DNA of 64,000 bases from NCBI GenBank assembly GCA_947500645.1, contig CANMSD010000003.1, positions 122,501 to 186,500 of the forward strand, in the 5' to 3' direction. A program made the position numbers and the translations under genes. Positions 39,317 to 41,867 of this stretch are shown here, in pieces. The notes under the pieces were generated by a model. The model searched no databases. It was given only the letters and a program-made list of their open reading frames with translations, and was not told the origin of the DNA. This stretch comes from an uncultured Erythrobacter sp. GTDB taxonomy: Bacteria; Pseudomonadota; Alphaproteobacteria; Sphingomonadales; Sphingomonadaceae. Positions within the stretch are counted from its first letter, which is position 1, and each line of letters opens with the position of its first letter.

Positions 39317-40285
39317 ATGGATAATGTTGGGGGCCGAGAAGAAAACGCTGCAGCGCAGCCTGATGGCGCTCCCCGCAGCGCGCGTGGATTGCTGCTGATT
39401 GCAGCTTTGTTGGGTGGCAATATTGCTTTGGCGACGGGGCCATGGTTGGTCCGACTGGTCGATACTGGCCCTGTTTCGGCGGCGTTCTGGCGGCTGTTCC
39501 TGGCGCTGCCATTCCTGGTGGTGTTCGCTTGGGTGGCCGGTCAGCGGATCGGGGGTATGCCAAGGAAGACCTTGGTGCTGATTGCGATTGGCGCCACTGC
39601 CTTTGCGATGGACCTCGCCAGTTGGCACATCGGGATAGGCATGACGCGGCTGGGCAATGCGACACTGTTCGGCAATGCTGGCTCGATCATCCTGTTGTTC
39701 TGGGGCTTTATCATTGCGCGTATGATGCCGCGCGGGTTCGAATGGGTGGCGATTTTCTGCGCGCTGGGCGGAGCGGGCATACTGCTTGGGCGCAGCCTCG
39801 AAATCTCGACGACAACATTTGTCGGGGACCTGTTCTGCCTGACGGCGGGCGTGCTCTACGCGGTGTACTTGCTGACCTTGCAAGGTCAGCGCGCACGGTT
39901 TGGATCGTGGAGCCTGCTGGTGTGGGTGAGCATCTTCGCCTGCCCTGTGCTGTTGGCGTTGGCCATTGCGCTAGGCGAGCCGGTTTGGCCGACCGACTGG
40001 ACGCCGATCCTGATTCTATTCGTGAGCAGCCAGCTGATCGGACAGGGCCTGCTGGTCTATTCGCTGGGGCACTTCCCGCCGCTGATCATTGGTCTCGCGC
40101 TGCTGACACAGCCCGCAGTCGCGGCGGTGATCGGCTTTACGGTGTTTAGCGAAGTGCTGACTCCGCTCGATCTGGTGGGAATGGTGCTGGTCGGCGCTGC
40201 GCTGGTTGTGGCGCGGGCGAGTCAGATTTCGTCACCCCAGCGAACGCTGGGGTCTAGGGCTTCTGAGTCCGAGGAAGCCAAATGA
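39317..40285 (+). CDS. DMT superfamily (EamA) transporter
   Basis: A 322-residue protein with ten membrane helices in two EamA repeats, of the drug/metabolite transporter superfamily. The substrate is unknown. The last about 20 codons (VARASQISSPQRTLGSRASE) run through a palindromic repeat at 40231-40257, so the normal C-terminus was probably replaced when that repeat arrived. Its stop overlaps the start of the GIY-YIG gene as ATGA. Confidence 0.88.
   Translation: MDNVGGREENAAAQPDGAPRSARGLLLIAALLGGNIALATGPWLVRLVDTGPVSAAFWRLFLALPFLVVFAWVAGQRIGGMPRKTLVLIAIGATAFAMDLASWHIGIGMTRLGNATLFGNAGSIILLFWGFIIARMMPRGFEWVAIFCALGGAGILLGRSLEISTTTFVGDLFCLTAGVLYAVYLLTLQGQRARFGSWSLLVWVSIFACPVLLALAIALGEPVWPTDWTPILILFVSSQLIGQGLLVYSLGHFPPLIIGLALLTQPAVAAVIGFTVFSEVLTPLDLVGMVLVGAALVVARASQISSPQRTLGSRASESEEAK
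40231..40257 (-). repeat. REP-like palindrome, copy 1 (inverted, inside transporter 3' end)
   Basis: GTCACCCCAGCG-AA-CGCTGGGGTCTAG; on the minus strand it reads CTAGACCCCAGC-N4-GCTGGGGTGAC, the same consensus as copies 2 and 3. The stem ACCCCAGCG/CGCTGGGGT is perfect over 9 bp. It lies in frame in the last codons of the DMT transporter and faces copy 2 across the GIY-YIG gene. Confidence 0.85.
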
Positions 40286-40575
40286 AGCGCGGCGGCTTCG
40301 TCTATATCATGACAAACAAGCGCTACGGCGTTTTGTATGTTGGCGTAACATCGGATTTGGCTGCTCGTGTGAGCCAGCATCGCGCGGGCAAGGGTGGTGA
40401 GTTTACGTCCAAGTATCGTTGCACAATGCTCGTCTATGTTGAGGAGTTTCCGACCATCGAAGAGGCGATTGCGCGTGAAAAGGCGCTAAAGGCGTGGAAG
40501 CGCAAATGGAAGATCGAAGCGATTGAGGATCAGAACCCGTCATGGGATGATCTCTACCTGAAACTGCTCGCGTGA
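40282..40575 (+). CDS. Small GIY-YIG nuclease-domain protein
   Basis: A 97-residue protein made of one GIY-YIG endonuclease domain: GFVYIMTNKRYGVLYVGVTS carries the two motif halves (VYI...LYVG), then Arg in DLAARVSQH, and the catalytic-type Glu in TIEEAIAREKALKAWKR. Such stand-alone proteins are related to UvrC and homing-endonuclease catalytic domains. It starts at ATGA overlapping the transporter stop and lies exactly between inverted copies 1 and 2 of a palindrome, suggesting that gene and repeats arrived as a unit. Cellular role unknown. Confidence 0.9.
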   Translation: MKRGGFVYIMTNKRYGVLYVGVTSDLAARVSQHRAGKGGEFTSKYRCTMLVYVEEFPTIEEAIAREKALKAWKRKWKIEAIEDQNPSWDDLYLKLLA

Positions 40576-40580
40576 CCGCT

Positions 40581-40608
40581 CTAGACCCCAGCTTCCGCTG
40601 GGGTGACG
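40581..40608 (+). repeat. REP-like palindrome, copy 2
   Basis: CTAGACCCCAGC-TTCC-GCTGGGGTGACG: stem ACCCCAGC/GCTGGGGT with a 4-nt loop, 5 nt after the GIY-YIG stop. In inverted orientation to copy 1 and the same orientation as copy 3. Confidence 0.88.
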
Positions 40609-40610
40609 AG

Positions 40611-40778
40611 TTAGGGATCTAGTTTTATCACCACGTTATGCCGGCGCACGCTGGCATCTAGGACCACGAACGCCACCGCAATGGCAACAGCGCTAATCAT
40701 GCCAAGTGCGACTAAGCCCATCTTGGGTTTGCCCGCTCTGATGTAGGCGCGGACTATTTCCGAGGTGTGTTTGTTCAT
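40611..40778 (-). CDS. Small one-helix membrane protein, 55 aa
   Basis: ATG at 40776-40778 on the minus strand opens 55 codons ending at TAA 40611-40613. The product starts MNKHTSEIVRAYIRAGKPKM, followed by one good membrane helix (about 20-41, GLVALGMISAVAIAVAFVVL) and a short basic tail. It sits between palindrome copies 2 and 3. The clear charge-helix-charge layout supports a real small membrane protein of unknown function. Confidence 0.6.
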   Translation of the reverse strand: MNKHTSEIVRAYIRAGKPKMGLVALGMISAVAIAVAFVVLDASVRRHNVVIKLDP

Positions 40779-40833
40779 GCGCTCGAGAATAAAGCGCCCC
40801 GAACCAGTTTGCTATTCCGCTTCCCTAGCCGAC

Positions 40834-40860
40834 CTAGACCCCAGCATCGCTGGGGTGACG
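40834..40860 (+). repeat. REP-like palindrome, copy 3
   Basis: CTAGACCCCAGC-ATC-GCTGGGGTGACG, same consensus as copy 2 with a 3-nt loop. It ends 5 nt before the nadA stop codon on the other strand, so it could also act as a 3' stem-loop for that transcript. Confidence 0.88.
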
Positions 40861-40865
40861 GGGGT

Positions 40866-41867
40866 CTAATCCGCCGTAAACGCGACCTTGCCCAGATCGC
40901 CCAGGCCAACCGTGCCGCCGGCCATGCCCAGCATCCGGTCGAGGCTCTTCTTCGCCTTCAGGCGAAGGTCTTCCTCGATCTCGATGCGCGGCTCCAGATC
41001 GCGCAGCGCAACGTAGAGCTTCTCCATCGTATTGAGCGCCATGTACGGGCAGATATTGCAGCTGCAGTTTCCATCCGCGCCGGGTGCGCCGATAAAGTTT
41101 TTCTCCGGCAGAGCCTTTTCCATCTGGTGAATGATGTGCGGCTCTGTAGCGACAATCAGCGTGTCGCCTTCGAAGGTCTTGGCGAATTTCAGGATGCCGC
41201 TGGTCGAGCCGACATAATCGGCGTGGTCGATGATTGTTGGCGGGCATTCCGGGTGCGCGGCGATTGGCGCGTCGGGATGCTCTTCTTTCAGTTTCAGCAG
41301 CTCGGTCTCGCTGAACGCCTCGTGCACGATGCACACGCCTGGCCAGAGCAGCATTTCCCGGTTGAACTTGCGCGACAAATATCCGCCAAGATGGCGATCC
41401 GGCCCGAAGATGATCTTCTGGTCTTCCGGGATCTGTTGCAGGATTGTTTCTGCGCTGGAGCTGGTGACGATCACGTCGGACAGCGCTTTCACTTCGGTCG
41501 AGCAATTGATGTAGGTGAGCGCGATATGATCTGGGTGCGCCTCGCGAAAGGCGCGGAACTTGTCCGGCGGGCAGCTGTCTTCCAGGCTGCACCCGGCGTC
41601 CATATCCGGCAGCACGACGATCTTTTCAGGCGAGAGGATTTTCGCCGTATCGGCCATGAACTTCACGCCGCAAAAGGCGATCACATCTGCGTCGGTTTCG
41701 GCTGCCTGTTGCGACAGCTGGAGCGAGTCACCAACGAAATCCGCAATGTCCTGAATATCGGGCGTCTGGTAATAATGCGCGAGGATCACCGCATTGCGCT
41801 CTTTGCGCAGGCGATCGATCTCAGCGAGCAGGTCCTCGCCCGATGGCACTTTATTCTCAACGCTCAT
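40866..41867 (-). CDS. nadA: Quinolinate synthase NadA
   Basis: [4Fe-4S] enzyme that condenses iminoaspartate with dihydroxyacetone phosphate to quinolinate in de novo NAD synthesis. The 333 residues include early AVILAHYYQTPDIQDIADFV, GDSLQLSQQAA, and the three cluster-ligand regions DMDAGCSLEDSC, LWPGVCIVHEAF and CSCNICPYMALN. No nadB or nadC lies next to it; a single gene here is common. Confidence 0.96.
   Translation of the reverse strand: MSVENKVPSGEDLLAEIDRLRKERNAVILAHYYQTPDIQDIADFVGDSLQLSQQAAETDADVIAFCGVKFMADTAKILSPEKIVVLPDMDAGCSLEDSCPPDKFRAFREAHPDHIALTYINCSTEVKALSDVIVTSSSAETILQQIPEDQKIIFGPDRHLGGYLSRKFNREMLLWPGVCIVHEAFSETELLKLKEEHPDAPIAAHPECPPTIIDHADYVGSTSGILKFAKTFEGDTLIVATEPHIIHQMEKALPEKNFIGAPGADGNCSCNICPYMALNTMEKLYVALRDLEPRIEIEEDLRLKAKKSLDRMLGMAGGTVGLGDLGKVAFTAD

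Follow-up and report, generated by a model that had tools for sequence, protein, structure and literature searches.

We propose that a small GIY-YIG protein encoded in the 64-kb window (the whole stretch of DNA analyzed here, from an uncultured Erythrobacter sp.) is probably the dedicated cognate nuclease of the CGTC-tagged REPs, and that its gene, together with the palindromic repeats on either side, would form a mobile unit working like the REP/RAYT systems. The proposal draws on the anatomy of the locus, an association that spans several phyla, the prevailing orientation of the repeats, their cognate pairing with the protein, the conservation of its active site, and the presence both of dispersed copies and of sites that lack the element. 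The locus contains the following features:

39317..40285, plus strand: EamA/DMT transporter (open reading frame and Pfam match); residues 305-322, about the last 18, are encoded by REP copy 1 and spacer
40230..40258, plus strand: CGTC REP copy 1, with CGTC tag, loop GAAC and tail CTAGG on the gene side
40282..40575, plus strand: GIY-YIG nuclease gene, 97 residues (open reading frame and Pfam PF01541)
40580..40608, minus strand: CGTC REP copy 2, in inverse orientation to copy 1, its tag pointing outward
40611..40778, minus strand: small open reading frame of 55 codons, whose 3' part runs through the degenerate REP
40634..40662, plus strand: degenerate fourth REP, identified by eye, with tag CGTT and one stem mismatch, facing copy 3
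40833..40860, minus strand: CGTC REP copy 3, oriented like copy 2
40866..41867, minus strand: nadA, the neighbor that served as reference for the site comparison in congeners

The initial annotation had described three palindrome copies near a GIY-YIG gene, the first two facing each other across it and the first embedded in the end of the transporter, and this description proved accurate in each respect. All three copies share the stem ACCCCAGC/GCTGGGGT, with a 4-nt loop in copies 1 and 2 and a 3-nt loop in copy 3. Copies 1 and 2 form an inverted pair with 32-nt arms that are 91% complementary and 317 nt apart, with the GIY-YIG reading frame inside; the transporter frame reads through copy 1, and its stop overlaps the nuclease ATG. 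The window holds 3 occurrences of the core CCCCAGCN{2,6}GCTGGGG, where shuffles predict 0.01, which rules out chance as the source of the palindromes; the 3.375-Mb genome has the core at 5 places. The small minus-strand reading frame is a second local case of a REP extending a reading frame, and at the congener locus L057 a REP lies at about the same place as the degenerate copy.

CGTC repeats beside small GIY-YIG genes

CGTC-tagged REPs were described in 2013 as a superfamily found in five phyla and, according to the available text of that survey, apparently without a dedicated transposase, the identity of the mover being left open (PMC3733652). The same text defines them by an unpaired CGTC at one end, a stem of 8-9 bp with complementary A-T at positions 1 and 2, and a loop of 4-5 nt; the tail of most, not all, of them fits CCA, and the Neisseria dRS3 repeats are CGTC-1 REPs (PMC3733652). 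As judged by sequence, the window palindromes belong to this superfamily: they carry the unpaired CGTC tag at one end, form facing dimers, and have an 8-bp stem and, in copies 1 and 2, the 4-nt loop. The first stem pair is A-T, but the second is C-G, and the loop of copy 3 is shorter than the described range. Their tail, CTAG, departs from the CCA consensus, and CCA tails are present at many related loci. The genome also falls short of the many copies usual for such repeats, having 8 REPs under our pattern, where relatives have up to 226.

The superfamily as described in the available survey text has no dedicated transposase (PMC3733652), whereas the repeats analyzed here have a recurrent GIY-YIG partner gene. 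We found no report of a link between GIY-YIG genes and REPs in the literature searched, which left preprints and most subscription papers outside, nor in the available text of PMC3733652, PMC12306157, PMC6006769, PMC5082802 and PMC5896051. The suggestion that a nuclease-linked REP system would be largely undescribed needs a correction as to the repeats themselves, which belong to the described CGTC superfamily. Genes of about 95 residues may have escaped notice partly because the intragenic REP count of the survey omitted hypothetical proteins shorter than 120 residues (PMC3733652, available text).

The genome of the window has three small genes with a GIY-YIG domain, and 7 of its 8 pattern-matched CGTC REPs are no more than 546 bp away from one of these domains, the eighth being an orphan; the outcome named beforehand as refuting, palindromes placed regardless of GIY-YIG genes, did not appear. 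At one of the two other genes (L007), a facing REP pair with stems TTCCCGC and CTCCCGC is found upstream and none downstream; the other (L008) lies between inverted REPs with the stem ATCCTGAA, which the superfamily pattern missed. Since the stems differ among the three loci, the association is with the class of REP and not with one sequence.

Relatives of the gene (E 1e-6) are carried by 138 of 199 genomes of the family, at 1-11 copies each. We analyzed 112 loci, comprising 2 from the genome of the window, 30 from the family search and 80 taken in rough score order from the matches listed, skipping a number of entries on short contigs or with internal stops. Most tagged REPs within 100 bp had their tags outward (66 in plus and 10 in minus orientation upstream, 66 in minus and 16 in plus orientation downstream), and from 300 bp outward their number dropped to 0-3 per 100-bp bin. 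A first detector, which required GTCA, found a REP within 200 bp on either side of 75 of the 112 loci and on both sides of 61. A tag-free scan for hairpins within 120 bp finds more because many REPs carry GTCG or diverged tags: 105 loci upstream, 98 downstream and 91 on both sides, counts that also include hairpins other than REPs, such as the sole hairpin at L039, which is not a CGTC REP. The corresponding values in 662 windows shifted by 700-1100 bp were 8.2%, 8.8% and 0.6%, so that the statistical linkage called for in the initial annotation is evident. Around 29 UvrC genes, which encode the same domain in the same family of organisms (one of 30 loci was dropped at a contig end), hairpins were found upstream of 5, downstream of 5 and on both sides of 2, and 2 of the 29 had some nearby hairpin holding GTCA or TGAC.

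These controls bear on whether the hairpins might simply serve a small gene as terminators or regulatory stems. REPs do lie near gene ends, and many are plausibly transcribed according to the available survey text (PMC3733652), as terminators would be. Against this, UvrC genes and shifted windows, the two sets used as controls in place of other small genes, mostly have no hairpins, and those at the GIY-YIG genes flank the gene on both sides, usually in inverted orientation with the tags pointing outward, and vary in step with the protein. Terminators are ruled out as the main reading by the two controls, and we regard this explanation as extremely unlikely.

The association between nuclease gene and CGTC REPs extends beyond the family. 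Among at least 579 relatives in named genomes, the best 80 belong to Alpha-, Beta-, Gamma- and Deltaproteobacteria and, judging from record titles, to Planctomycetes, Nitrospinae, Nitrospirae, Ignavibacteria and others; many of the records represent metagenome-assembled genomes, in which contigs can be misplaced. In the 76 loci scanned (4 were dropped at contig ends), a hairpin was found upstream in 66, downstream in 55, on both sides in 46 and on either side in 75, compared with 9.4% upstream, 9.1% downstream and 0.9% on both sides in 427 control windows. Inspected by eye, nearly all of these hairpins are CGTC REPs; the hairpins at L197 and L206 are exceptions, and none is present at L163. 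Together with L039, these are loci with no clear CGTC REP beside the gene, and we count them against the proposed pairing. In a Neisseria gonorrhoeae record (L166), the GIY-YIG gene adjoins CGTC-type REPs.

Repeat type, repeat number and protein lineage

The two sides of a locus carry similar repeats: over 91 loci, the median distance between upstream and downstream REPs was 2 edits, compared with 10 for REPs of different genomes and 9 for those of different loci in one genome. Across genomes, protein distance correlated with REP distance (Mantel r 0.489; the largest of 2000 permutations gave 0.134). For 53 pairs of diverged genes within one genome, which are not independent of each other, the REPs matched those of the nearest foreign relative better than did the swapped REPs in 51, worse in 1 and equally well in 1. 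On the protein tree, which has few columns and many open forks, the distribution of REP stem types implies 27 changes, compared with a mean of 66.9 after shuffling, and 0 of 200 shuffles were as low. The stem types CCAGC, CCCCGG, CCCGC and CTGAAC were each clustered beyond all 500 shuffles; CCTGC was weakly clustered (9 changes, 4 of 500 shuffles as low) and CCGGC barely so (10 changes, 25 of 500), both being counted against the pairing. The Mantel, pair-swap and tree results suggest that REP type tends to follow the protein, not the host.

The number of REPs also rises with the number of GIY-YIG genes (Spearman 0.645 over 199 genomes), as judged by counts that are rough, the pattern missing some REP types. 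The median is 0 in the 61 genomes without the gene, 32 of which have no REP under the pattern, and 44 in the 23 genomes with five or more copies. Two groups count against the proposal: 17 of the 138 gene-bearing genomes have no pattern REP, and 6 of the 61 without the gene have 10 or more. Scattered REPs had their best match among the REPs flanking GIY-YIG genes of the same genome in only 3 of 7 genomes, the GIY-YIG genes being incompletely sampled; this comparison left out REPs beside GIY-YIG genes, one odd match in G186 and 10 of the 20 listed REPs of G129. In a genome with a single GIY-YIG gene (G053), many REPs by eye share the stem and tail of the REPs at that gene, and others do not.

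The nuclease and the window site

The 97-residue protein matches PF01541 with an E value of 2.7e-19 and has a weak match to T5orf172; Pfam returned no HUH tyrosine transposase. Tyr8, Tyr19, Arg29, Glu66 and Asn85 are present, and over the 112 loci the first four are conserved in 112, 112, 110 and 110, respectively. The protein thereby has both the domain and the conserved Tyr, Tyr, Arg and Glu of the GIY-YIG superfamily, which we take to be its catalytic residues. An internal stop was found in 4 of 112 loci, a figure that understates decay because entries with such stops were among those skipped and the matches extend beyond those listed. A search of NCBIfam profiles gave no specific family for the small protein, and the records annotate its gene as "GIY-YIG nuclease family protein", "excinuclease ABC subunit C" or "hypothetical protein". 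The closest solved relatives by sequence are the UPF0213 structures PDB 1zg2 and 1ywl; 1zg2, as aligned, lacks both tryptophans of the W-R-W-K stretch that typifies the REP-linked proteins. A phage origin was considered and rejected on the basis of the related L007 protein from this genome, for which 50,697 phage records gave no hit at E 1e-6.

We compared the window site in 22 congeners that have the transporter, one of which is truncated by its contig. Three of the 22 carry at the same site a 77-80% identical GIY-YIG gene flanked by REPs, in one case oriented as in the window and in two reversed. A further congener has a single REP of another stem, and six have neither gene nor REP, their transporter ending no more than about 300 bp from nadA. 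Among the sequences compared, the repeat-free congeners have other transporter tails, extending 1 to 23 (once 67) codons beyond the aligned part, and none has the REP-encoded tail; the comparison of transporter 3' ends proposed in the initial annotation thus did not yield the same C-terminus in relatives without repeats. The reversed genes (L055 and L059) would have arisen by inversion between inverted REPs or by independent insertion. Comparison of the window gene with each of two congener genes gives dN/dS of 0.09 and 0.10, and comparison of those two with each other gives 0.20, values that rest on three sequences (the gene of L055 being left out) with dS near saturation.

The shared site, the low dN/dS and the conserved residues together suggest that the unit is old here and has been kept. 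On these comparisons, the window unit is an old resident that has been retained, and both orientations occur in congeners. The locus had initially been called a candidate non-autonomous or domesticated mobile system; a mobile unit is what the data favor, non-autonomy finds no support, and the site shows age and purifying selection, not a fresh insertion.

Purifying selection and long residence at the transporter site would also be expected of a host nuclease that had been domesticated to remove or repair hairpins formed by REPs, with those next to its own gene serving as a sensor. Such an enzyme would not readily account for a patchy distribution (138 of 199 genomes, 1-11 copies) or for dispersed and internally deleted copies, and we consider this role very unlikely.

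Dispersed copies, element-free sites and proposed movement

The reading of gene and REPs as a mobile unit is consistent with near-identical copies of an element at different sites in one genome (G071). In six copies, compared over regions of about 4.5 kb on the same strand, similarity stops 21-102 bp to the left and 42-58 bp to the right of the element; copy 1058k was compared but not delimited. Long-segment copying gets no support from these flanks. Two copies share one internal deletion, leaving a 254-bp unit, and two others share another (344 bp), so that deleted copies occupy four places; a copy without these deletions measures 390 bp. Such dispersal of copies whose gene is broken would follow if an intact copy acts in trans.

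Several groups have sites that lack the element. In a congener (G139), the L115 element is missing along with roughly 240 bp of its surroundings; in two congeners of G111, the L064 element is missing along with more of the adjacent DNA. The ends of the unit are only approximate, because similarity passes the tags and element-free congeners also lack some nearby DNA. No target-site duplication was established at the element-free sites, where junctions are too diverged or ambiguous; those in Shinella were too diverged for junction reading.

Three aligned records of Sphingobium plasmids have the element between fnrL and the gene of a response regulator. All that TomTYG64 has at this site is one symmetric palindrome flanked by CGTC and GACG; TomTYG74 has the same palindrome with two substitutions, and TomTYG72 and TomTYG65 have neither element nor palindrome. 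Pattern matches to such CGTC/GACG symmetric palindromes occur in 98 of 199 genomes, and further cases are L236, L238, L092 and L194; it is possible that they are targets or excision scars.

Free-standing GIY-YIG homing nucleases, enzymes that cleave an unoccupied allelic site and are then copied there, are known. One of these could use REPs as safe insertion sites while the REPs spread by other means, and the palindromes on the two Sphingobium plasmids, one perfect and one substituted, where sister plasmids carry the element, fit a target as well as a scar. The present system resembles such homing endonucleases in its small, apparently selfish GIY-YIG gene and differs from them in its cognate flanking palindromes and in the absence of phage matches to the L007 protein at E 1e-6. 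A hitchhiker of this kind is at odds with the rise of REP number with gene number, with the dependence of REP type on protein lineage and with the genomes without the gene, most often free of REPs and seldom rich in them; CGTC REPs are moreover apparently without a transposase in the available survey text (PMC3733652). Based on these observations, we judge this alternative unlikely.

We therefore return to the small GIY-YIG protein as the probable cognate nuclease of the CGTC REPs. The minimal mobile unit would be CGTC-palindrome-tail, gene, tail-palindrome-GACG, and gene-less REP dimers and internally deleted copies would be its non-autonomous relatives. Gene-less dimers do exist, and 3 of 4 fetched from G087 share a spacer by eye. 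The enzyme would recognize palindromes of its own type, probably in hairpin or cruciform form, and nick or cut at or near it; host replication and repair would then copy the unit into new, mostly intergenic sites, and an intact copy could act in trans on other copies.

RAYTs are enzymes paired with a REP type. REPtrons and REPINs likewise place an enzyme gene between inverted cognate REPs, include gene-less dimers and consist of small dispersed intergenic repeats. They differ in their GTAG tag and HUH tyrosine transposase, as given in the available text of PMC3733652, from the CGTC tag and GIY-YIG nuclease seen here. The initial parallel with REP/RAYT, drawn for a nuclease of another fold, now extends beyond the locus through linkage, orientation, covariation, copy number, dispersed and deleted copies and element-free sites.

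More tentatively, we suggest that the system may represent a new class of transposable element, whose sole enzyme is a GIY-YIG nuclease of about 95 residues, which moves itself and palindromic REP dimers via a hairpin or symmetric-palindrome intermediate and is responsible for CGTC REPs across many phyla. With a small GIY-YIG nuclease as cognate partner, a second, unrelated enzyme family would enter REP biology, and the system would illustrate how small the protein requirement of a self-spreading bacterial element can be. The question of what moves CGTC REPs becomes amenable to biochemical test given such a partner, and a function would be suggested for a gene now annotated only generically.

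Two further arrangements concern the surroundings of individual elements. At L251 (G188), the GIY-YIG gene lies between a complete REP dimer and a half dimer with nearly the same spacer, in direct order. In one genus, elements at nine loci (L031, L071, L077, L080, L083, L110, L112, L114 and L115) adjoin, by eye, an intergenic repeat with GCGGAC-type motifs, possibly a preferred target.
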